From assembly GCF_003627215.1 (NCBI RefSeq), contig NZ_CP032678.1, positions 62,001 to 126,000 of the forward strand: DNA of 64,000 nt, read 5' to 3'. The position numbers and the translations under genes are program-made. Of this stretch, positions 2,504 through 15,995 are shown one piece after another. This stretch comes from Pseudomonas sp. Leaf58. GTDB lineage: Bacteria; Pseudomonadota; Gammaproteobacteria; Pseudomonadales; Pseudomonadaceae. Position 1 is the first letter of the stretch; each line of letters begins with the position of its first letter. A model generated the notes under the pieces. The model was given only the letters and a program-made list of their open reading frames with translations. It ran no database searches and was not told the origin of the DNA.

Positions 2504-2519
2504 CAATATACGCTATAAT
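2504..2519 (+). promoter_or_regulatory. Promoter of the helicase gene with CAATATACGC motif
   Basis: CAATATACGC (2504-2513) is followed directly by a consensus -10 box TATAAT (2514-2519). The helicase ATG lies at 2555, giving a leader of about 30 nt. No good -35 box is visible 16-18 bp upstream, suggesting activator dependence. The ten-base motif recurs exactly at 47745 and 55184 and, inverted, at 29158. Confidence 0.6.
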
Positions 2520-2554
2520 TGAATTATGACCCAGACCTGGGCGAGAATAGAAGC

Positions 2555-4687
2555 ATGAATGCACCAGCGGGAGCCGGCATGGCACAGGCGATTACACTCA
2601 AAGACATCGTGGCACTCGATAGCGAAGAAGAGCGCATCGAGCTATTGATGCAGGGGCTCAATGAGCGGCAGCGCGAATGCGCCATGACCCTCAATGGTGC
2701 AGTTGCGGCGATTGCTGGCCCAGGCGCAGGCAAAACCAAAACCTTGATCGTGCGTACCGCGCACCTGCTGATCAAGGATGTGCCGGCTACTTCGATCATG
2801 CTGGTGACCTTCACCAACAAGGGCTCCGATGAGATCAAGGAGCGCCTGGAGACCATGGTGGGCGAGGTCGCCCAGTACATCACCGCAGGCACGTTCCACT
2901 CGATCATCTACAAGGTGATTCTCAAGGCCAATGCCAACCACCCGTACCTGGAATCGATCGGCATCGATTTCAACGAGTGCACCATTTTCGATGAAAGCGA
3001 GTCTTCAACCTTGTTCGAGGAAGCTATCAAGCAGCTCGACAAGGATACCCAGGAAATGATCGACGAGAAGCGCTGGGCCAAGAAGATCGAGGAGCAAATG
3101 GCTGCGGCCAGGGCCAAAGGGCATACCGCCGAAACCTATGCGCGGGAGATGATCGGTTTTGGCGATCCTTCTGACGTGCTGTATCGCGTCACCAAGGATG
3201 CCTGGGATCAGTACACCCTGTTGTGCCGTTCGGCCAATGGCATCGACTTTGACGACATCCTGGTCGTGGCCAATCAGCTGATGATGCGTGACCCACGCCT
3301 TGGCCAGGAGTTGGCGGAGCGGTACCGCTACATGATGCTGGATGAATACCAGGACACCAACCCGGTGCAAATGCGGATCATGGATCAGATCGCCAGGCAC
3401 CATGAAAACATCCTGGTGGTGGGTGACGAAAAACAATCGATCTATGGCTTCCGGGGCGCGGACATCCAGGTGATCTTGACCTTCATGCAGCGCTACCGCA
3501 AAGCGGTCAAGATCGACATGAACATCAACTACCGGTCAACCCCGGCCATCCTCGAAGCTGCCAACGTGGTGGCGGCCCGGATGAACCAGAAGCTCTCCGA
3601 TGGCGCCGTGTACAAGGATCATGACCAGTATCCGCAAGGCGCACCGGTTTCGATCGTGGCCTTCGAATCGGACAAGCAGGAGGCCGATGTCATCGCCAGG
3701 GGGATCAAGCGTGATCTCGCCAACGGTATCCCAGGCAAGGAAATTGCGATCCTTTATCACTCGCGCCAGGCCAAGCCGGCGATTGAGCAGGCGCTCGTGC
3801 AGAATGCGATCAACTACCAGGTGGTGGGCGACATCGGCTTCTATCAGCGCGCCGAGGTGAAGAACGCCATCGCCCTGTTGCGCTTCACGTTCCGCCCTTG
3901 GGACTCCATGGCCGCGTGCCGGCTGCTCAAGTGCACCAGCTTTGGGGTGTCAGACAAGAGCGCCAAGAAAGCCATGGCCCAAGGCAAGACCGCGCACGCC
4001 TATCTAGTGGAGATGGCCGCGAAAACCAATGCCAAGAAAGAGCCCTCGGCAGTGTCACTGAAACTGGCCCCGCTGCTGGACTCGATGCTCGCCATCCGCA
4101 AGCTGGTGGCCTATGGCGAACACGTGGACTACATACGCACGGGCGTTGAGCGCCTGTGGGAAACCTACCTAGGCCCAGGCGTCCGCCGCGCTGCGGCACA
4201 GAAAGACAACGTGCCGCTGGACGATGCCATTGCCAACTCCCTGCAGAACGTCGCCTTCCTGCTCGACCGCTTCTTCCGCGAGCTGGAGGAAGGGCGCAAG
4301 CCCGAGGATATCCTCGAAGAGCTCAGCATGCTCGGCGACATGAGCCGGCAAACCGAAGCGGATCAGTTGCAGACCATCCGCATCATGACCATTCACGCCT
4401 CCAAAGGGATGGAAATGGGGCATGTGTACCTGCCGGCGCTGGACAAGGACACCACCCCCGGTGAAAAGGAGCAAGACAATGACGTCCTGGAGGAAAAGCG
4501 CCGGGTGCTGTATGTCGGCATGACCCGAGCGAAGCACAAGCTGGTGATGTCCTACGCCAAAACCAAGCGTAAATTCGGTCAGCTTATCGTCACCGAGATT
4601 TCGCCGTACCTCAAGGAAGTGTGCTCGGGGCTTGGCAAAACCCCCTTTAACTACAAAGCACCGCAGCAGGATGGCCCGAGTCGCTGA
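2555..4687 (+). CDS. UvrD/Rep-type superfamily 1 helicase
   Basis: A 710-aa ATP-dependent 3'-5' DNA helicase by family. All SF1A motifs are present: Walker A GPGAGKT (about residues 55-61), TFTNKG (Ia), MLDEYQDTNPVQ (II), VVGDEKQSIYGFRG (III), NYRS (IV), IMTIHASKGMEM (V) and VLYVGMTRAKH (VI). The length is near that of UvrD. ATG 2555 is chosen because an in-frame TTG at 2519 sits inside the -10 box. It is monocistronic or weakly linked to the SbcC-like operon, which has its own promoter 130 bp downstream. The role is probably plasmid DNA repair or replication. It lacks the nuclease domain of RecB or AddA. Confidence 0.95.
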   Translation: MNAPAGAGMAQAITLKDIVALDSEEERIELLMQGLNERQRECAMTLNGAVAAIAGPGAGKTKTLIVRTAHLLIKDVPATSIMLVTFTNKGSDEIKERLETMVGEVAQYITAGTFHSIIYKVILKANANHPYLESIGIDFNECTIFDESESSTLFEEAIKQLDKDTQEMIDEKRWAKKIEEQMAAARAKGHTAETYAREMIGFGDPSDVLYRVTKDAWDQYTLLCRSANGIDFDDILVVANQLMMRDPRLGQELAERYRYMMLDEYQDTNPVQMRIMDQIARHHENILVVGDEKQSIYGFRGADIQVILTFMQRYRKAVKIDMNINYRSTPAILEAANVVAARMNQKLSDGAVYKDHDQYPQGAPVSIVAFESDKQEADVIARGIKRDLANGIPGKEIAILYHSRQAKPAIEQALVQNAINYQVVGDIGFYQRAEVKNAIALLRFTFRPWDSMAACRLLKCTSFGVSDKSAKKAMAQGKTAHAYLVEMAAKTNAKKEPSAVSLKLAPLLDSMLAIRKLVAYGEHVDYIRTGVERLWETYLGPGVRRAAAQKDNVPLDDAIANSLQNVAFLLDRFFRELEEGRKPEDILEELSMLGDMSRQTEADQLQTIRIMTIHASKGMEMGHVYLPALDKDTTPGEKEQDNDVLEEKRRVLYVGMTRAKHKLVMSYAKTKRKFGQLIVTEISPYLKEVCSGLGKTPFNYKAPQQDGPSR

Positions 4688-4875: not shown

Positions 4876-5187
4876 ATGTCGACTACTGACGCTGCTGCAG
4901 ACCTCAAGCAGGCTATTGAACTGGAGGGTCAAAATCAGGCGGATCTGATCCGTCTGGGTACCGAACTTCAGCATCACGAGGCTCAGGCTGCCGAGCTGGC
5001 GGCTCAGGCCAAGGCAGAAGGGTGCAACACCCTTGACGAGCTGCGTGCGCTGTTCACCACCGGCAATGCCGAAAACCTGCGGGCGGTCGCGGAATTCAAA
5101 AACACAGTCAGTGCCCGCCGCACCAAAATCAGCGAAATTCGAGACCAGCTCAACCGCCTGAATAACGCGCCTAGCGCTCGGGGGTAA
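4876..5187 (+). CDS. Small coiled-coil protein preceding the SbcC-like ATPase
   Basis: A 103-aa protein predicted from composition to be mostly helical: Ala/Glu/Gln/Leu-rich heptad-like segments at residues 5-45 and 65-95 with one short break (GCNTLDEL). ATG 4876 is chosen for its GGAGG site 7 nt upstream; an in-frame ATG at 4822 lies inside the -35 box. The gene ends 3 bp before the ATPase start. It is tempting to see it as a partner supplying coiled coil to the ATPase, whose own N-terminal coil is short, but that is inference. I recognise no family. Confidence 0.75.
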   Translation: MSTTDAAADLKQAIELEGQNQADLIRLGTELQHHEAQAAELAAQAKAEGCNTLDELRALFTTGNAENLRAVAEFKNTVSARRTKISEIRDQLNRLNNAPSARG

Positions 5188-5190
5188 GCG

Positions 5191-7089
5191 ATGACTCTGC
5201 AGCCTACAGTGAACCCCCTCGACGAGCTGAACCTGTTGACCGCGACCGTCCAGCAGCTTTCCCGTGACGAAAGCGAGCTGAAAGGCGTGGCTCGGCAGGC
5301 CATGAACGACATGGCGCGGGTGTCGGTTGAAATCGGCGCGTGTGATGCCCTGCTGATGCGTAAAGACGACATTCAGCATGCCCTGCTGGCGCTGCAGATG
5401 AAAGTGCAGGCCAAGAACAAGGGGGTTTTCGAAGACCTGCTGACCTCCCTGATTCATGAAATCATGCCTAACAAGACCGGTGAAAAGATCGTTTTCACCA
5501 GCTCGATGCGCAACAACCTGGCGGCGCTGGATGTGGACATCCTTTCCAACGGCGATCTGGAGAACGTCAGTCGTGACCGGGGCGGCAGCATTGCCAACAT
5601 CGTGGCCATGGGCCTGCGCTTCGTCGTGTTGGCGCGCCACCCCAACCGACGCGTGCTGTTTTTGGACGAAGCGGACTGCCATCTGGCTGAAATGTACATT
5701 CCGGCCTTTGCGGCGGTCATGCAGCAGCTGGCGCACCGCCTGGGCATTCAGGTGATCTACATCAGCCACAAACCCGCTGCGTACTTCTCCGGCTACTCGC
5801 GAATCATCGAGATTTACAGCGAAAATGGCAAAACCCACTCGCGTACCATCAGCGATGAGGTGGTCGATGACAGCGTCGAGTACCCTGATAACGCCCTGCG
5901 GTACATCCGCCTGAAGGACTTCGGGCCGCACGAGAACATCCTGGTGGAATTGGGCCCAGGGGTGAACGTGATCATTGGTGACAACGACCTTGGCAAGAGC
6001 AAGTTCATCACCGCCGTGTCGGAGTTGCTGGACAACGACGGCACCGAGACCCGGATTCGCCACCATCGCCCTCACTTCGAGGTGGAGATCGGGCTTGAAG
6101 AGGGCATGAGCCTGATCTGGAAATACGCCCGTAAAGGCAGTAATCGCACCAGCCTTGAGCTCAAGGACAAAAACGGGATGTGCATCGAAAGCTCGAACGC
6201 CGGCAAGGGCAAGGTGCCCGAATGGCTGCACACCTACCTGGCAATGGGGCGAATCCATGGCCAGGATATTCATGTGCATCCGCAGGATGAGCCCAAGTAC
6301 CTCCTGTCGAGTCGATACACACCGATGGATCGGGCCAAGATGCTGCCACTGGGGCGTGAGTCGCGAGACGTTCAGCGCATGCTCCAGCAGTTCACCCAGC
6401 AGATCATGGATGCCCGCCAGCGCAAGGCTGCGCTGGAGATTGAGCTGAACCGGATCAAGAACCAGCTCAAGATCTTGTCGCCCTTGCTCGACGAGGCACC
6501 AGATGACGATTTGCTGTTAGGTCACGAGCAACTGATTCAGCAGTGTCAAAAAATGGCGCGTCTGGCGAAGCTGGATGCCAAGTTAAACCATGCCGAACAA
6601 GCGATCGGCATTTTGAAATCCGGAATTGAAGAGGTCAGTCGCTACTTCTTGGTGCCTGTCCAGCTGATGGAAACCCAGAAACTACAGTCATTGATTCAGG
6701 GCATTGAGCGCAACAGCCAGGTGGTCAACATCCTTAGACAGCTGCGTAGCCTGCCTGGAGCGCCGGCAGTGCCAGTGCTGCATGACTCGAACAAGCTCAA
6801 GCATCTCGGGGTTCGCTGGGGCAAGAGCATCAAGGCGATTGAAATCCTGCAGGCGGTGCACGCGCTCCTCCCCGTAGCAGCACCAACCCTCAAGGACTTG
6901 TCGGCCCAGGCTGACTTGATCAATCGCCTGGACAAAACGTCCGCTGCTGTGGACGCCTGGAAGGGCAAGATCACAGCCTGCCAGCACGAAGCAGTCGCCA
7001 TCAAGGAACGCAAGGACGCCTTGATTGCGCAACTCGGTGGCATCTGCCCTACCTGCCAACAGACCATTGGAGCGCATTCCCATGCTTGA
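5191..7089 (+). CDS. Rad50/SbcC-like ATPase with circularly permuted head and C-terminal zinc hook
   Basis: A 632-aa protein. The order of motifs is reversed relative to Rad50/SbcC/SMC proteins. Residues 1-80 are helical; then come the signature-like SRDRGGS (127-133), Walker B VLFLDE (155-160) and switch histidine ISH (191-193). Only after these come the strand LRYIRLKDFGPHENI and Walker A GDNDLGKS (263-270). A long helical region (about 390-610) ends with CPTC (619-622), the CxxC of a zinc hook, ten residues from the C-terminus. In normal Rad50 the Walker A half is first and the hook is in the middle. The layout equals a Rad50 opened at the hook and joined at its natural ends. It overlaps the SbcD-like gene by 8 bp. 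I infer DNA-end processing or tethering. Confidence 0.85.
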   Translation: MTLQPTVNPLDELNLLTATVQQLSRDESELKGVARQAMNDMARVSVEIGACDALLMRKDDIQHALLALQMKVQAKNKGVFEDLLTSLIHEIMPNKTGEKIVFTSSMRNNLAALDVDILSNGDLENVSRDRGGSIANIVAMGLRFVVLARHPNRRVLFLDEADCHLAEMYIPAFAAVMQQLAHRLGIQVIYISHKPAAYFSGYSRIIEIYSENGKTHSRTISDEVVDDSVEYPDNALRYIRLKDFGPHENILVELGPGVNVIIGDNDLGKSKFITAVSELLDNDGTETRIRHHRPHFEVEIGLEEGMSLIWKYARKGSNRTSLELKDKNGMCIESSNAGKGKVPEWLHTYLAMGRIHGQDIHVHPQDEPKYLLSSRYTPMDRAKMLPLGRESRDVQRMLQQFTQQIMDARQRKAALEIELNRIKNQLKILSPLLDEAPDDDLLLGHEQLIQQCQKMARLAKLDAKLNHAEQAIGILKSGIEEVSRYFLVPVQLMETQKLQSLIQGIERNSQVVNILRQLRSLPGAPAVPVLHDSNKLKHLGVRWGKSIKAIEILQAVHALLPVAAPTLKDLSAQADLINRLDKTSAAVDAWKGKITACQHEAVAIKERKDALIAQLGGICPTCQQTIGAHSHA

Positions 7090-7984
7090 ATTGAACCCGC
7101 AAAGCATTGAAACCTCCGTGATTACCGGCATGAAGGGCTTTCTTCTGGTCGGTGACCCATGGTTGGGCTCAGAGCGCCGTGTAGGGCGCGTGGACAACAC
7201 CTGGGACACGTCCATGGGCAAGCTGGTGAACGCCTTCGAGATCGCTGCTGAGCGGCAGCTGCTGCCTGTTGTCCTGGGTGACCTGCTGCACGAAAACCGT
7301 GATATGGGCAAAGTGCTGGAGATCATCAATGCGGTGAAGGGGCGCCAGGCTGTTCTGGTGCCCAGGGATGGCCGCTGGCTTGACCGTAGCAAAGGGCATA
7401 TCGCCGCGATTCTCCAGGCTTCGGGTTTGGCACATGTCGCCGGATACAGCGCCAAGCGTTATCAAATCCAAGTCAATGACAATGGCCAATGGCATAAGCT
7501 GGAGATGGAGTGTCACACCTCCTGGGGTGGGCACAATCGACTGGATCAGGGCAGCCGTGCCCGCGTGGTGATTCCCGCCCTGGGGATTGTTGCCGAGCCC
7601 GATTCCTCGATTCCAACCATGGAGGCCGAGCAGGGTCATACGCTCATCAAGGCAGGCCGTCTGATCCGCCTAACTGCACTGGAAGAGTCGCTTGAGGTCA
7701 ATGTGTTCGCCGTCACCCAGGGGGGTGTTGAGCGCATCGCACTTAAAACTGTGCCAATCGTCTTCACCGACGCCTCAATGAGTGCCGATCAGTTCCAGCA
7801 GGGGTTGGTCAGGGATAGTCAGTTCGTCGAGCGTTTGCGTGCTTCGACCGCCGAAAGCCTTGAGGAGGAGGGAAAGGAAGGCATGATCGAACAGATCGAT
7901 GCCATTTGCACGGAAATCGGTGCCGATGACTATGTTCGCACCAAGCTCTATGAGCTTTCCAAAGACGCGGCTGCAGCGGTTTGA
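7082..7984 (+). CDS. Divergent Mre11/SbcD-like metallophosphoesterase
   Basis: A 300-aa protein starting at ATG 7082, inside the ATPase gene (8-bp overlap, coupled translation). The N-terminal half follows the calcineurin-type phosphoesterase plan: LLVGDPWLG (residues 21-29), an Asp-rich helix, VVLGDLLHENRD (63-74), LVPRDGRW (92-99), and late histidines in ECHTSWGGHN (143-152). Canonical motifs would be DxH, GD, GNH(D/E), H and GHxH; here DxH reads DPW and GNHD reads PRDG. Some metal ligands are therefore missing or replaced, so nuclease activity is uncertain. Its pairing with an SbcC-like ATPase is the strongest argument for the assignment. The C-terminal 120 residues would be the capping and ATPase-binding part. 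Confidence 0.72.
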   Translation: MLELNPQSIETSVITGMKGFLLVGDPWLGSERRVGRVDNTWDTSMGKLVNAFEIAAERQLLPVVLGDLLHENRDMGKVLEIINAVKGRQAVLVPRDGRWLDRSKGHIAAILQASGLAHVAGYSAKRYQIQVNDNGQWHKLEMECHTSWGGHNRLDQGSRARVVIPALGIVAEPDSSIPTMEAEQGHTLIKAGRLIRLTALEESLEVNVFAVTQGGVERIALKTVPIVFTDASMSADQFQQGLVRDSQFVERLRASTAESLEEEGKEGMIEQIDAICTEIGADDYVRTKLYELSKDAAAAV

Positions 7985-10163: not shown

Positions 10164-10580
10164 ATGATTACCAAAGTCTCCAATATTCGCGCAAACAGCA
10201 ATCACGCCATTTTCATTGGGCGCAGCCGCGACCCCTATCATTTCGGGAACCCCTTTCCGATCGGCGGTAAAAACCCTCTGCATGAAAATCAGGTGTTCGA
10301 CCGTGCGGGTTGCATCCTGGCCTTCCATGACTGGCTGGCAGGAAAGCCTGGGTACGAGAAGATCGAGCAAGACCGGCGACGCTGGATCCTTGAGAACCTG
10401 GAAACATTGCGCGCCCAGACGCTGGGCTGCTTCTGCGCACCGAAAGCCTGTCACGGGGATGCCTATCGCGTATTTCTCGGTGAAATCACGTACGACGATC
10501 TGCTGGACATTGTCCAGGGTCGCCCCAAAGTTCAGGTGGCCCCGGCGCATGAAGCCCCGCTACAGGGCAGCCTCCTCTGA
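10164..10580 (+). CDS. DUF4326-like protein
   Basis: A 138-aa protein from ATG 10164. It shows the family pattern: IFIGR followed by FGNPFPIGG (about residues 17-35), a helix with FHDWLAGKPGYE, then LGCFCAPKACHGDAYRVFL (about 88-106). The cysteines and CHGD motif are typical of DUF4326, a family found in phages and plasmids and of unproven function, perhaps nucleotide-related. The last 20 bp overlap the convergent gene 10560-11177. Confidence 0.75.
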   Translation: MITKVSNIRANSNHAIFIGRSRDPYHFGNPFPIGGKNPLHENQVFDRAGCILAFHDWLAGKPGYEKIEQDRRRWILENLETLRAQTLGCFCAPKACHGDAYRVFLGEITYDDLLDIVQGRPKVQVAPAHEAPLQGSLL

Positions 10581-11177
10581 GCCCCTCCGACTGAGGGGGA
10601 GGTGAATATCAAGCTGGGGCGGGTTGCTCATCATCTGCCTGAACTGCTCGATCACAAGGCGCGCCCGAGGCTCTGCCAGATGGTATTCGTACCATTCAAG
10701 GGAAAGCGCACATTCACCGATGCGCTTAACCACCTCTGGCTGCGGGATATTGCACTTGTAGCGGGGGTCGGTGTTTCGGGTGAGGATGATCTCAGCATAG
10801 CCAAACTGGTCTGCCGTAAGATCGAGAATCCAGCCCTGCTCGTGTTCCAGCCAGGCATGGGCTGACCACTGCTGATTCCTGGCAAGCATGCCCCCTGACG
10901 GATAATGATCATCCACCCTGAATTCATCGACAAAAGGCACGCCCTCGCGGGGCGTCCAGCCCGTCACACCCGCCTGGGTGAACAGGTGCAAGAGGTAGGC
11001 GGTCGTCAGCAAGCACATGTTTTGCGAGAGGGGGTCTCGCAGGTGATCGGGATAATTCCGCTTGAACCAGTCCCAGTCTTCACAGAGCAGGCCCCTGATG
11101 GGCACCAGGGCGTTTTTCAGCCTAACTCTGTGAAAGATCATGGGTAGCCACTCAAGTCGGCTCAGGGGACTCTTCAC
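10560..11177 (-). CDS. Transglutaminase-like cysteine protein, tentative
   Basis: A 205-aa protein. A Cys-His-Asp series in the order seen in transglutaminase/papain-like folds is visible: NMCLLTTAYL (Cys about 54), SAHAWLEHEQGW (His about 107) and ILDLTADQFG (Asp about 118). The HAW(V/L)E...hLD segment is the most family-like part. The catalytic role is inference. The start at 11177 overlaps the preceding gene by 26 bp; ATG 11141 would avoid this. Last gene of a leftward operon starting at 16671. Confidence 0.55.
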   Translation of the reverse strand: MKSPLSRLEWLPMIFHRVRLKNALVPIRGLLCEDWDWFKRNYPDHLRDPLSQNMCLLTTAYLLHLFTQAGVTGWTPREGVPFVDEFRVDDHYPSGGMLARNQQWSAHAWLEHEQGWILDLTADQFGYAEIILTRNTDPRYKCNIPQPEVVKRIGECALSLEWYEYHLAEPRARLVIEQFRQMMSNPPQLDIHLPLSRRGSEEAAL

Positions 11178-13440
11178 GCTCCCTGCTGCGCTCGTTGCTG
11201 CGCCCCTTCGAGAACATGGCCATCATCATCTTGACGATGCTCTGGATCATGGCGATGACTTTATCCATGTGCTCCTTGGCCTGCTTGGCGCATTCGCCTA
11301 CGGCACCGGGCTCCTTGGCCTTTTCATCAACTACCGAGCGCACCTTGCGCAATGACTGGTCAGCCGCCCCGACAGATTCGGCCAGTGCCGGCGAGCCTTT
11401 CTTCGCGCCGAACTTGTGGGCCTTGGTCACGTCCTCCTGCAGGGATTTCATGCTGTTGGTCAACTCGCTCCAGCCACGCAGAGTCTGGTCGGCGCTCAGC
11501 GGCTTGCCGTCAGCGTGCGTACCGGTCTCCAGCATCGAGGTCAGGCCGTTGATGTGGTTCATCTTGGCATTAATGCTGTTGGCGGTAACACCCGGATCAA
11601 AGGCATTGCGCGAGAACACACCAGGCCGAGACGACAGGCCTTTGAAGCTCGGCGTCTTGGGCAGGCCGAAACTGATATTGAACATCGGCGGGGGTGGTGG
11701 CGGCATGCCCATGCCGCCCATACCGCGTGGCATACCACCCATACCACCCATACCACCCATGCCGCTCATGCCCATGCCTGGGAAGGCGTCCTTGGGTTTG
11801 GTCGGATCTTGAGGCCGAGGAGCAGCCGCCCCTTTCGGGGCCGGAATGTGTTGGCCCGGATCAATCAAACGATCTGCTGCTGCCGCTGCCCCTGCTGCCG
11901 CTGTGCGGCGGGTTTGCGGATCTGGCTCACCTGGAATGTAGGCGTCACTGTCGGCGTCCTGGAGGGCAGGATCGTTGTTCTTTTCCTCAGCGCGTCTTTT
12001 GGCTTCTTCGATCGCCTTCGGATCCTGGGGTGCTTCGTTGATGTCCGTGCTCATACTCAATACCTCATCTGGATGAAAGCTTCCAACATCCAGGTTGTTA
12101 AGAACCAGTGTGTAGCGCCCCGAATCATCGTGAATTTTCTCAATACGAGTCGGCGCCTTGATTTTCGCCATCAGGCCGTCAGCCAGCTCCGCCTTGACGG
12201 CGTTCGCGAAGTCGCGGGGCACGTCGAGAATCCGGTTTTTGGCAATTTCGCCACGGTTCACCGAGCTCAGCACGAAATCCTTGAGCGCCCAGTCCTTGAA
12301 GCCTGCATTGCGGATCCTGATTTGGCGCAACGGGCCTGCCTCAAACTCCTTGAATGCCTTGTTGTAGCGGGCCAGGTCATAACGTTTGGCCTCCATGCAA
12401 TTTCTATCCAGCGTGGCAGCTTCCTCGGCGTCAGGCTCGTGATTGGGAAAATCTGCAGGGCCTTTGCCGTCAAAATAGGCCTTGGCCCACCGATCGACAT
12501 CATCAATCGATCGCTCAAAAGACTCGTCCCACTCCATGTCGAATTTCGGGTCAAGCACAGGAAATTCAGCAAGGCTTGCTGGTACTTTTTCCACCGCCTT
12601 GGCCAGTTTGATGGCTTCATCCTGCTGCAGCGCTTCGATCTGGGCACGCATTTGAAGAATGTCTTCGCGTTGCTCAAAGCGCGCATTTTCCTCCGCTGCC
12701 TGGGCGCTGAGCGCCTCTATGCTGTTACCAGCATTAGCCGCCTCCCGCGAGCTGCGCTCCAACTCCTCAATGCTTGAGCCAGGTGCGGGCGCCATGAACT
12801 GCGCTGATGCTTCCTGAAGCTTGGCATGGATGCCCGAATCACTGAGCGCCTGCATGTTCAGTTCGGCAATAACAGTCTGTAGGCCAGCGATTTTCTGGCG
12901 ATGATCAGGGATTTCCCCTTTCTCAGCCATCATCCTGGCCATGTCGACACGATCCTGATCGCTCCAACGATCAATGAACAGGTTGTCGACGGTGAAGGGT
13001 GGATCATATTCCACCTGGAAATGCCGCTTGTTTTCCAGATCGTAGACGCCCTCAATGCCCGCATAGGCAAACAGCTCCTTCACGCGCTTAAAGTCGATCT
13101 TCCCCTTGTTGTCGGACAGGTAGTCAATCTGATCAAACAGCTGCGTTTCGATCTTGCGCGGCAAGTTGGCGCTTTGCACCATGCGCTCGATCTGATCCAC
13201 GGCGATTTCGAGAGGCTGCTCCCCACGCGTCGAACGCAGAGGCTTGTCGGTCTCGTAGTCGTAGTAGTTCTTGATGTTCGATTCATCAATACGGGCAATC
13301 CACTGCTTGAAAAAGCGCTCCTGGTAGGGATTGCCTTTCAACAGGTTACGGAAGTAGTACGCTACGCCAATATCATAGGATTTAGGCACTTCCCACTTGG
13401 GCAGGGATTGGGGCTCACTCATGGAAGCAATCTCTCTCAT
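11152..13440 (-). CDS. Large unknown protein with MGGMGG repeats
   Basis: A 762-aa protein (756 aa if it starts at ATG 13422; neither start has a strong ribosome site). Residues 1-180 look globular. A helical, Gln/Glu/Ala-rich segment spans about 200-300. A charged linker (about 440-540) leads to a Gly/Met-rich stretch with repeated GMGGM units and a run of six prolines (about 556-590). The C-terminus is helical and ends in an Arg/Glu tail. There is no signal peptide and no clear transmembrane segment apart from a methionine-rich amphipathic helix near residue 735. I recognise no family. It is in an operon with an exported protein related to the one upstream of the icmC/icmV/dotA genes, so a transfer role is possible. 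Confidence 0.65.
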   Translation of the reverse strand: MREIASMSEPQSLPKWEVPKSYDIGVAYYFRNLLKGNPYQERFFKQWIARIDESNIKNYYDYETDKPLRSTRGEQPLEIAVDQIERMVQSANLPRKIETQLFDQIDYLSDNKGKIDFKRVKELFAYAGIEGVYDLENKRHFQVEYDPPFTVDNLFIDRWSDQDRVDMARMMAEKGEIPDHRQKIAGLQTVIAELNMQALSDSGIHAKLQEASAQFMAPAPGSSIEELERSSREAANAGNSIEALSAQAAEENARFEQREDILQMRAQIEALQQDEAIKLAKAVEKVPASLAEFPVLDPKFDMEWDESFERSIDDVDRWAKAYFDGKGPADFPNHEPDAEEAATLDRNCMEAKRYDLARYNKAFKEFEAGPLRQIRIRNAGFKDWALKDFVLSSVNRGEIAKNRILDVPRDFANAVKAELADGLMAKIKAPTRIEKIHDDSGRYTLVLNNLDVGSFHPDEVLSMSTDINEAPQDPKAIEEAKRRAEEKNNDPALQDADSDAYIPGEPDPQTRRTAAAGAAAAADRLIDPGQHIPAPKGAAAPRPQDPTKPKDAFPGMGMSGMGGMGGMGGMPRGMGGMGMPPPPPPMFNISFGLPKTPSFKGLSSRPGVFSRNAFDPGVTANSINAKMNHINGLTSMLETGTHADGKPLSADQTLRGWSELTNSMKSLQEDVTKAHKFGAKKGSPALAESVGAADQSLRKVRSVVDEKAKEPGAVGECAKQAKEHMDKVIAMIQSIVKMMMAMFSKGRSNERSREREESPEPT

Positions 13441-13483
13441 TTTCTCTATCGTGAGCGATGAGCAACAGTGCCATCAAGCCCAC

Positions 13484-14602
13484 TCACATTTTATTGGCAG
13501 GGTTGTCGATGACGCCCAGCACGTATTTGGCCAGCAACTGTTCTTTGATCAGGCTGGATTCGTACCGATCAATCATTTGGCGCAACTGAATCGACTTCAT
13601 GATCGCACCTTCGCGGTTGATGGCACTGGTCGTGTAGGTGTTGTCCTGAGTAACCCTGGTCACCCAGCTTTTCCCGTCAGTTGCCAGAGCGCCTTGGTCG
13701 GTGAAACGCAGGGCTGTTTGCGCTTCAAGTGCCGTCAACTTGGAGGGTTGTCCAGGTTCAGGCGGGGTACGCATCTGAATGTGCCGGTTGATGATAGCCC
13801 CCACATCATTCACTGCGTTCTTCATCCGCAGCTCTGTCAGGATTTCCTGAGGTTCGGTGGGGTCGGTCGGATTGAAACGCACGTACGGAGGGTAGGTGAC
13901 ATACGCATACGTCTGGGCCATTTCCAGGTCTTCGGGGCTGAATTGCGGGTTGTAGTTGCCCATGGGCATGAGAAGCCGAGGGTCGCTCGCCAATTCGCCT
14001 TTGCCCGCATCCCCCCAGGCCTTGATTTTGTCAAAAGTGGCGATCTGTTTGGCCAGATAAGCCGCATAGTTCTTCTGTGATTCAGTGAGCGTCGCTGATG
14101 CACCGGACGTTGACGCACTGGTGACCAGCCCGGTAATCCCCTGGCCTACGCTTTTGGCCTTGGCGTACAGCCCAACCACGTTTCCTGACACGGTGTCGAT
14201 CACGTCTTGATAGGTGTCCAGCACCGAGCTGTCGCCACATGCCAGGTCGGAAATAGCAGTGCCATTGATGGTTGTCGTGCAGGCGTCGCGGGTCGGCAGT
14301 GATCGCTCCAGCTGGCGCTTGTTATGAATGTCGGTAAGCACCTGATTCATGCGCGCTACGGTGTTGGCCACACCATTGTTCATCGCCATGATCGAGCTGT
14401 CTTTGCCCGTGTGGTACATTTGCATTATCGAATCGAGGTGTGCATATTCGATCGCCGCATGCATCTGCGTTTGAATGTCTTCATAAATCTGCTGGGCCAG
14501 CTTTGCGTAATCGTTCACTGGGATCAAGAAGGCGTTGGCTCCCAGTGACAGCACCAAGCAGCCAAGACCCAGCGTGTTACGCATCTTGCGCTTGAAATTC
14601 AT
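13484..14602 (-). CDS. Exported protein, paralogue of 23858-24988
   Basis: A 372-aa protein with a signal peptide (cleavage near ANA, residue 24). It shares a pattern with the exported protein at 23858-24988: NNGxAN, AR, DIxN, QLExSxP and DAC (here residues 75-108), then a second cysteine, and a helical C-terminus with (K/R)(Q/E)EQL. The shared cysteines suggest periplasmic disulfides. The other copy lies directly upstream of IcmC-like, IcmV-like and DotA-like genes, so both are probably parts of the transfer apparatus. I do not recognise a named family. The gene is 2 bp from the upstream stop. Confidence 0.7.
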   Translation of the reverse strand: MNFKRKMRNTLGLGCLVLSLGANAFLIPVNDYAKLAQQIYEDIQTQMHAAIEYAHLDSIMQMYHTGKDSSIMAMNNGVANTVARMNQVLTDIHNKRQLERSLPTRDACTTTINGTAISDLACGDSSVLDTYQDVIDTVSGNVVGLYAKAKSVGQGITGLVTSASTSGASATLTESQKNYAAYLAKQIATFDKIKAWGDAGKGELASDPRLLMPMGNYNPQFSPEDLEMAQTYAYVTYPPYVRFNPTDPTEPQEILTELRMKNAVNDVGAIINRHIQMRTPPEPGQPSKLTALEAQTALRFTDQGALATDGKSWVTRVTQDNTYTTSAINREGAIMKSIQLRQMIDRYESSLIKEQLLAKYVLGVIDNPANKM

Positions 14603-14603
14603 G

Positions 14604-15995
14604 TTAATCCTCCGGAAGCTGTTCGCTGCGCGACATGATCAATGAATCGGAAATCGCCCAGATCCAGGCCAGGTGATGTTTGGCCTTGTCTCTGACACGA
14701 TCGAATGAAAGGGTGATGTCCTGAAGCGGTAAGTTACCCTCATTCAGCCGATCCTTCAATTTTTCCTCAAACCGAGAAAAATCCATATGCTCATGCTGTG
14801 CCAGATAGGTTTCTTTGTCTTCATCGGACATGGCGCTGATTTTATCGATCAGGTCAGCTCCCGCATCTTCCCATGCCTCCGACATTTGGCTGTCGATGTG
14901 CGCAAGATAATTGGATTTCCACCGAGCAGCCTCATCCGGGAGTAAGTCCGGAATCTTGGTGTTGTCGAGGTAACCTTTTGCGAGGGTGCGAACGCGCTCA
15001 ATCAGGGCCTGAGCGTCCTCGTCTTCATATCCCATGTCCAGCGACTCAAATGAGTTTTCAAACAAGGGTAGCGGCATTCCGGGATCACTAGGCAGATACT
15101 CGATCGGCTCCAGCTCTTCCATCACGCATTCACGATAGGCTTTTTCCGCAGCGTCCAGGCAATGGGGCAGGGCGCTGCTGAAGAGATTCTCCTTGTCGGA
15201 AATCTGGGAGCGCTTGCTCCAGCTGTACGCCACGTCTTTCGCCAGGATCAGGGCAATTTTCGACAGCTCCCTGAGGACATCTTTCGGCTCGTGCGCACAC
15301 CACAGGCCATCCAGTCGCGACTGGGTTTTCAATGTCGCGGTAAACAGTGCCAGCTTGATCACGAGGTTGCCGTCACCGGTGGCATTTTCAGCCATTGAGT
15401 TCTCAAAATCACTGCTCTCCAGCACCCATTGCTGTGCAACCTGAACCAGGCCGCTTAGGGTCTCAATGGGGGTGTCCACGTACAGACTGGCCAGGTTTTT
15501 GGCCAGGGCCCTGCGCATGTAACGCAGCAAGATGTCCTGGCTGTCGGCGTTGTTGGCCGTCAAGCACAAATCCACCAAGCTCAGGTGCTCCTTGCACTTC
15601 TGGGCGACCACCTGCTTCAAATCATCATCACTGAGGTGCGGGTTGCGTCGACGTTCACCCACATACAGAGGGGCTGCTTCAGTCATGGCCTGCAAAAACC
15701 CCTGCAGCGCACGGTAATACTGGATGCGACCCTGCCCCTGATCCAGCGGCTTGGACTCAGTGGAGGGTTTTGGCTTCGGGGTTTCCAGCTTGGGCTGCTC
15801 GCGCCAGTTGGCGGGCGCGCGTTCGCGCTCTAAGGCGCGCAGACGCTCGCGCTCACGCACCCGGCGCACAAAGTGGTCATTGCTGCTGTCACTGCTCTCA
15901 TCGGCGTCATTGAATCCTTTCTCCAGGTTATCCACCATGGAGATGGGATCATCGTCATCATCGTGACTACGACCGGAACCGCGATTAGAGGCCAT
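14604..15995 (-). CDS. Unknown cytoplasmic protein (463 aa)
   Basis: No signal peptide or membrane helix. Residues 1-90 are low-complexity and charged: an Asp run, then Arg/Glu-rich RRVRERERLRALERER, then Pro/Lys. The rest is helical with many acidic residues (for example EDEDAQALIERVRTL). No catalytic motif recognised. The start overlaps the upstream stop by 11 bp and the stop is 2 bp before the next gene, so translation is tightly coupled within this operon. Confidence 0.65.
   Translation of the reverse strand: MASNRGSGRSHDDDDDPISMVDNLEKGFNDADESSDSSNDHFVRRVRERERLRALERERAPANWREQPKLETPKPKPSTESKPLDQGQGRIQYYRALQGFLQAMTEAAPLYVGERRRNPHLSDDDLKQVVAQKCKEHLSLVDLCLTANNADSQDILLRYMRRALAKNLASLYVDTPIETLSGLVQVAQQWVLESSDFENSMAENATGDGNLVIKLALFTATLKTQSRLDGLWCAHEPKDVLRELSKIALILAKDVAYSWSKRSQISDKENLFSSALPHCLDAAEKAYRECVMEELEPIEYLPSDPGMPLPLFENSFESLDMGYEDEDAQALIERVRTLAKGYLDNTKIPDLLPDEAARWKSNYLAHIDSQMSEAWEDAGADLIDKISAMSDEDKETYLAQHEHMDFSRFEEKLKDRLNEGNLPLQDITLSFDRVRDKAKHHLAWIWAISDSLIMSRSEQLPED

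Follow-up and report, generated by a model that had tools for sequence, protein, structure and literature searches.

The window analysed here is a stretch of 64,000 nucleotides of Pseudomonas sp. Leaf58 (NZ_CP032678.1, positions 62,001 to 126,000), carried on a contig of 904,163 bases. The open reading frame (ORF) at 5191-7089 encodes an SbcC/Rad50-type ATP-binding cassette (ABC) ATPase in which the two halves of the head stand in swapped order and the zinc-hook motif lies at the C-terminus; the swap was confirmed as real and far beyond chance. Its gene stands between those for a small coiled-coil protein (S) and an Mre11/SbcD-like protein (M) with a degenerate catalytic site. On balance we favour the reading that the ATPase is a Rad50-type clamp opened at the hook, which works with S and M, derives from a split phage SbcCD and is nuclease-free in the Pseudomonas-type lineage.

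The motifs of the ATPase run from the signature G131-G132-S133 through the Walker B stretch LFLDEAD (156-162, with D159 and E160) and the switch histidine H193 to the Walker A motif GDNDLGKS (263-270), the Q-loop residue Q365 and finally CPTC (619-622). Rad50 and SbcC have the N-lobe first, the C-lobe last and the arms between them; here the C-lobe (98-221) precedes the N-lobe (236-388). The end of the Pfam SMC_N profile (143-218 of 220) matched residues 136-214, with a whole-protein score of 30.8 that did not reach the cut-off of 40, and AAA_23 (profile 2-199 of 201) matched residues 239-471 with a score of 32.5, above its cut-off of 27, so that the C-half of the protein precedes its N-half. 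In PHROGs, phrog_15167 (211 positions, 'ATPase') was found at residues 57-215 (expect value, E, 4.9e-11) and phrog_16465 (491 positions, 'exonuclease') at residues 236-515 (E 6.1e-14). A profile of 64 sequences was aligned with Rad50 chain 5f3w_B in swapped order, profile positions 225-294 falling on chain residues 5-78 and positions 126-202 on 290-364, with the first stretch alone significant by itself. The order had been claimed in a first-pass annotation of the letters and is borne out by the motifs, Pfam, PHROGs and the alignment described below. NCBIfam gave 11 matches at E<=1, none of them SbcC; the best was RecN (26.7 bits), and Rad50 reached 23 bits, far under the cut-offs, of which that for SbcC is a weak test, the canonical SbcC of the same host also falling short of it. 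No hinge match was listed at E<=1 in the general Pfam scan, which included no search aimed at the SMC hinge.

The alignment comprised 74 rows, near-copies included: the query, ten plasmid proteins and 63 database homologues that cover 83-100% of the query. G132, N136, R143, D159, E160, D162, Q187, H193, G263, G268, K269, Q365, C619 and C622 were invariant in all rows, and G131 and S270 each deviated in about one (S270 is kept in 99%). Motif residues were nearly all invariant down to 21-28% identity, and the permuted order was kept in every row, proteins of alpha-, beta- and gammaproteobacterial plasmids included. An assembly or annotation artefact was ruled out by the 63 homologues, which align in the same order, and a fusion of two unrelated proteins by the halves themselves, which are both Rad50-type lobes and occur as separate complementary pieces in phages. 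A gene opened at the hook with its ATPase termini fused, as first proposed, is supported by the lobe order and the homologues.

The hook is displaced from the centre of the chain to 10 residues from the C-terminus, and the tail behind CxxC measured 7-58 residues (median 10) in the 74 rows. The terminal HxH was considered as a source of extra zinc ligands that would make a self-contained knuckle. At least two His or Cys were present in 72 of 74 tails, yet single-chain hooks are comparable, with a His or Cys just after CxxC in nine of ten rows (two hooks counted twice).

An AlphaFold model of the ATPase matched Rad50-type C-lobes and N-lobes. Residues 98-221 were predicted as one lobe with Rad50 C-terminal pieces among the best fold matches, which bears out the earlier suggestion that the region around residues 127-193 is an ABC head lobe. 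The N-terminal arm would be the counterpart of the return arm behind the hook. In 16 members this arm measured 36-109 residues (mostly near 85-95) and the C-terminal arm 188-281. The 36-residue arm belongs to the Aeromonas plasmid pAC1520, where a separate 49-amino-acid ORF stands ahead of the gene (L008:5859-6008), as if the arm had been re-split or the frame shifted.

Matches to the ATPase were found in 21 of 72,556 records of a plasmid collection, 14 of them over at least 80% of the protein, on plasmids of Pseudomonas, Vibrio, Variovorax, Bosea, Rhizobium and Acidiphilium. Eleven of the 21 records were read. Among these, shorter matches from plasmids of Bosea, Alteromonas, Aeromonas and Methylorubrum turned out to represent this permuted gene as well; the other ten include one Bacillus record matching 15% of the protein. 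A scan of genome contigs added two clear cases, Pseudomonas serbica and Thalassospira. The gene is rare: with the window's own genome counted, it occurs in 2 of 398 genomes within the phylum and in 1 of 298 within the genus. In a wider protein search with a diverse profile the sole new protein among the matches listed was a fragment of 345 amino acids. Canonical SbcC and SbcD are encoded on the host chromosome, and the permuted system is thus an additional one.

The order S, permuted ATPase, M on one strand was kept at all 16 loci inspected, with the genes mostly within some 20 bases of each other or overlapping; in the window the M gene overlaps the ATPase gene by 11 bases. The S and M profiles were trained on most of these loci, and a leave-out control was therefore carried out. 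Without gamma-type members the M profile still found M in all eight gamma-type loci (E 2e-8 to 9e-4), and leave-one-out S profiles found 10 of 11 plasmid S proteins at E<=1e-3. S is the third, small protein of the set. On the Acidiphilium plasmid a DUF2312 gene (L006:12340-12711, minus strand) also scored with the S profiles (E 3.6e-5); it was taken as coiled-coil background and may be a distant relative. Coordinates are collected in the table.

Features of the permuted ATPase operon and its upstream neighbour (positions in the window)
Feature	Position	Strand	Evidence
UvrD-type helicase, upstream neighbour	2519..4687 (TTG start; ATG at 2558)	+	Pfam UvrD-helicase E 3.9e-62
S, small coiled-coil protein (103 aa)	4876..5187	+	Leave-out profile E 3.8e-9; background coiled-coil ORF 3.7e-5
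Permuted SbcC/Rad50-type ABC ATPase gene	5191..7089	+	ATG start, 632 aa; motifs, profiles, alignment, fold matches
N-terminal helical arm (residues 9-91)	5215..5463	+	Predicted helices 9-56, 58-91
ABC head C-lobe (residues 98-221)	5482..5853	+	GGS 131-133, Walker B D159-E160, switch H193
ABC head N-lobe (residues 236-388)	5896..6354	+	Walker A 263-270, Q-loop Q365
C-terminal helical arm (residues 389-614), linker-interrupted	6355..7032	+	Five predicted helices
Terminal hook CPTC (619-622), then HSH (629-631)	7045..7083	+	CxxC in 74/74 rows; H629 96%, H631 93%
M, Mre11/SbcD-like protein, degenerate catalytic site (301 aa)	7079..7984	+	Mre11 fold match; profile without gamma-type members E 3.6e-8

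By fold search the window M matched the calcineurin-like phosphoesterase fold of Mre11 type; the M profile found nothing when searched against PDB sequences. At the C-terminus, where Mre11/SbcD has a helical region that binds Rad50, helices 231-299 were predicted at lower confidence, and some E. coli SbcD rows aligned to residue 301 with a root-mean-square deviation near 8. M was scored at the metal-binding catalytic motifs GDxH, GD, GNHD, H and GHxH. The window protein keeps two of the eight positions and is without the His of GDxH, the NH of GNHD, the later His and the GHxH pair; none of the 26 gamma-type rows (the window and 25 relatives) keeps more than two. From these losses the window M has probably lost its nuclease activity, which corrects the first-pass picture of an SbcD-like partner. 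An active SbcCD-like nuclease, which would still cut DNA by means of the host SbcD, another nuclease or a displaced M site in ordinary recombination or end repair for the plasmid, is accordingly unlikely to be what the window encodes, the more so with the degenerate group conserved in that state (55 invariant columns in 20 sequences). Such a nuclease would suit the canonical SbcD of the host, the RecJ, LigD, RecQ or RdgC genes near the operon in relatives, and the M proteins outside the gamma-type lineage: six of six alpha/beta plasmid rows keep all eight positions, and among 34 phage rows each position is present in 32 to 34.

A search of phage records with the window ATPase returned four records, with matches to C-lobe stretches only, and none covering 80% of the permuted protein. 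In those phages and their relatives SbcC is encoded in pieces: an N-half that ends in CxxC and a C-lobe are separate proteins, a small S-like protein is a further piece, and M lies nearby. With the M of phage LR745208 as query, 40 loci were retrieved from IMG/VR. Altogether 48 phage loci, some of them pieces of one phage, were scanned for the four genes. All four were present at 31 loci (27 distinct M sequences), in the order N-M-S-C at 30 and N-S-C-M at one, that of Bacillus phage vB_BboS-125, and CxxC ended 36 of 37 distinct phage N-halves. Microcystis phage Mvi-JY20, found independently of the M scan, has N-M-S-C with the four genes adjacent and overlapping; a scan with its C-lobe found no relative. 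No permuted copy was found in viruses, the one locus that was confirmed (L018) reading by eye as a different ATPase.

Some further observations were made at these phage loci. In Bacillus phage vB_BboS-125 an unannotated SbcD-like ORF (L016:6659-7639; M profile E 1e-26) lies behind the split SbcC genes, and a gene annotated with an AP2 domain, which lies between S and the N-half of SbcC (L016:4819-5391), is possibly a homing element; a mobile gene that splits its host gene is one conceivable start of such a fission. In phage LR745208 (L015:3229-5676) S is separated from M on one side and from the C-lobe on the other by genes that by eye are nuclease-like and sliding-clamp-like, and similar gaps occur in most IMG/VR loci. 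Tunturiibacter phage Tunturi_5 has a stand-alone C-lobe (L025:7803-8468); within the 16 kb covered, no N-half, M or S was detected.

Closed into a circle, the phage order N-M-S-C can also be read as S-C-N-M. The plasmid operon is an exact cyclic rotation of this phage order in which C and N are fused. In every one of the 16 permuted proteins, phage-only profiles matched both the C-lobe and the N-half. In trees of each lobe, set against six single-chain phage SbcC and four canonical SbcC, the permuted proteins formed one clade that joined the split phage proteins (SH-aLRT, the Shimodaira-Hasegawa-like approximate likelihood ratio test, 94 for the N-lobe and 99 for the C-lobe), and the ten single-chain proteins fell apart from this group. 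This comparison supports descent of the permuted ATPase from a phage SbcC already split at the hook. In the simplest course a single chain would have been split at the hook, the operon rotated, most simply if a tandem duplication was followed by loss, and the genes for the C-lobe and the N-half, now neighbours, fused. The opened-gene layout first described is retained in this account, with a more specific history: the opening would already have been present in the phage, and rotation of N-M-S-C would have preceded the C-N fusion.

Several results weigh against this interpretation of structure, subunits and origin. The AlphaFold model has a predicted template-modelling score (pTM) of only 0.56, and its fold matches speak for the lobes singly and not for their mutual arrangement. 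In the VIA list, which tests little outside residues 228-472, Smc5/6 (11.4) and RecF (10.4) stand within about 1 of Rad50 (11.6). Only 8 of the 11 left-out plasmid S proteins outscored a background coiled-coil ORF, and the Alteromonas S was missed. The ATPase arms are unequal in length, and a comparison of S with the arms of single-chain SbcC gave no detectable similarity. The phage-only M profile matched M at 8 of 16 plasmid loci, none of them among the eight gamma-type loci. At E<=0.1 the phage-only S profile reached S at 4 of 16 loci, made one false match at 0.0036 and missed the window S; much of the argument for S is consequently one of position. The trees were quick searches with SH-aLRT values only and carried long-branch warnings, strongest for the C-lobe. 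As the one M of LR745208 brought in 29 of the 31 four-gene phage loci, the N-M-S-C count describes mostly one clade. vB_BboS-125 departs from this order, and in phage Magritte the N-half lacks CxxC and lies far from the C-lobe.

For the clamp opened at the hook we infer the following biochemistry. By its motifs the head would bind ATP between two subunits and hydrolyse it, as Rad50 does; two heads engaging around ATP, with M bound near them, would form an ATP-gated DNA clamp. The arms would run free to the hook. Because they are free ends of unequal length, completing or capping them may require S, a role at the hook that is our guess. With the window M probably catalytically dead, a clamp, tether or recruiter would be likelier than a nuclease. 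M would serve here as a pseudonuclease, and the complex would tether or organise plasmid DNA or recruit enzymes such as the neighbouring UvrD-type helicase. More tentatively, the system could be an 'open-apex' nuclease-free clamp and a third Rad50/SMC-type architecture, with a fused head, free arms, a tip closed or regulated by the small subunit and an Mre11-fold protein in a structural or DNA-sensing part; it might then be a tether or loop organiser that very large plasmids obtained from a phage repair complex by operon rotation.

Replication and recombination genes (helicase, topoisomerase, RecJ, RecQ, LigD, RdgC) neighbour the operon in relatives, and a role in plasmid replication, recombination or maintenance is for this reason favoured over defence. 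Defence against phages or competing plasmids, akin to Lamassu or other Rad50/SMC-type systems, appears improbable. The top PADLOC match of the ATPase was LmuB (E 9.1e-10, residues 237-629), the upstream helicase resembles GajB, and SMC-like systems have a precedent in plasmid defence (PMC10586767). The LmuB match is limited to the N-half, however, and 64 PADLOC families matched the ATPase at E<=0.1, 23 of the best 25 covering the Walker A stretch, so that the match to LmuB says little. No PADLOC model was matched by S or M, in a scan that covered the ATPase, S, M and, by the best 25 of its 51 matches, the helicase; a Lamassu locus would have the effector LmuA together with LmuB. That the gene is a decaying, nonfunctional fusion carried along on a large plasmid is very hard to believe, for all its rarity and the lost M site of the gamma-type lineage, given the near-invariant ATPase motifs in distant members, an operon kept at all 16 loci and an M conserved outside the lost site.

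In the relative loci L002, L003 and L011 the place of the window's helicase is likewise taken by a gene annotated as an ATP-dependent or UvrD-type helicase. The PADLOC matches of the window helicase were GajB-like among the best 25 of 51 (best E 5e-78). Further upstream a DUF1064 gene was found at 1633-2079 on the minus strand (E 3.1e-14); the annotations of pMPPla107 and FeN3W likewise place DUF1064 near the operon. Downstream, at 10560-15995 on the minus strand, lie four long ORFs (205, 762, 372 and 463 amino acids) with no Pfam match at E<=0.001.

Rad50, SbcC and SMC proteins are thought to require an unbroken loop from head to hook and back to head. A conserved family in which the loop is opened at the hook and the head is joined at its natural termini is a natural experiment on the roles of the hook and of the arm return. 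Comparison of single-chain, split and permuted forms, and of intact with dead Mre11 partners, separates clamp from nuclease function. The family also offers a possible route to circular permutation of proteins, through fission, operon rotation and fusion, and a candidate means by which plasmids of close to 1 Mb could maintain their DNA.

The Rad50 head is also normally made from one chain. The single-chain head that the first-pass annotation drew from the layout is therefore ordinary, and the novelty lies in arms that are free ends. A permuted or split-and-fused SbcC/Rad50 was not found in the literature searched, which included passages of PMC3175470, PMC7824862, PMC5105663, PMC12153180 and PMC8628078 and did not extend to bioRxiv and most subscription journals. 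Mimivirus R555 and other fusions, in which Mre11 is fused ahead of the Rad50 domain, resemble the permuted ATPase as rearranged Mre11/Rad50 proteins spread by viruses and plasmids, and differ in that a swap of the Rad50 halves is not described in the text at hand (PMC3175470). For giant phages, passages of two papers describe SbcCD and not the permuted arrangement (PMC7824862, PMC5105663).

T4 gp46/gp47 is likewise a phage Rad50/Mre11 pair with CxxC, but gp46 is a single chain of 560 residues in the usual order, and its CPTC, at residue 288, is central. Lamassu LmuB is a Rad50/SMC-like ATPase; its profile matches over the N-half and stops short of the C-lobe, and S and M have no counterpart among the PADLOC models. 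The split phage SbcC (vB_BboS-125, Mvi-JY20, LR745208 and IMG/VR contigs) shares the break at the hook, the N-half ending in CxxC and separate S and M proteins, and stands nearest to the permuted proteins in both lobe trees; it differs in its three separate pieces, mostly in the order N-M-S-C, in that the C-N fusion was not seen and in an M site intact in nearly all rows compared. With Rad50/SbcC and Mre11/SbcD (bacterial SbcCD, archaeal and eukaryotic Mre11/Rad50) the window system has in common the ABC head motifs, Rad50-like lobe folds, CxxC and an adjacent Mre11-fold partner. Unlike them it has swapped head halves, a C-terminal instead of a central hook, an added small subunit and, in the window's lineage, a partner without catalytic residues. 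We regard it as a variant of the Rad50/Mre11 kind, with a head expected to work alike, but one that departs from two defining features of the family, the order of the lobes and the central hook.
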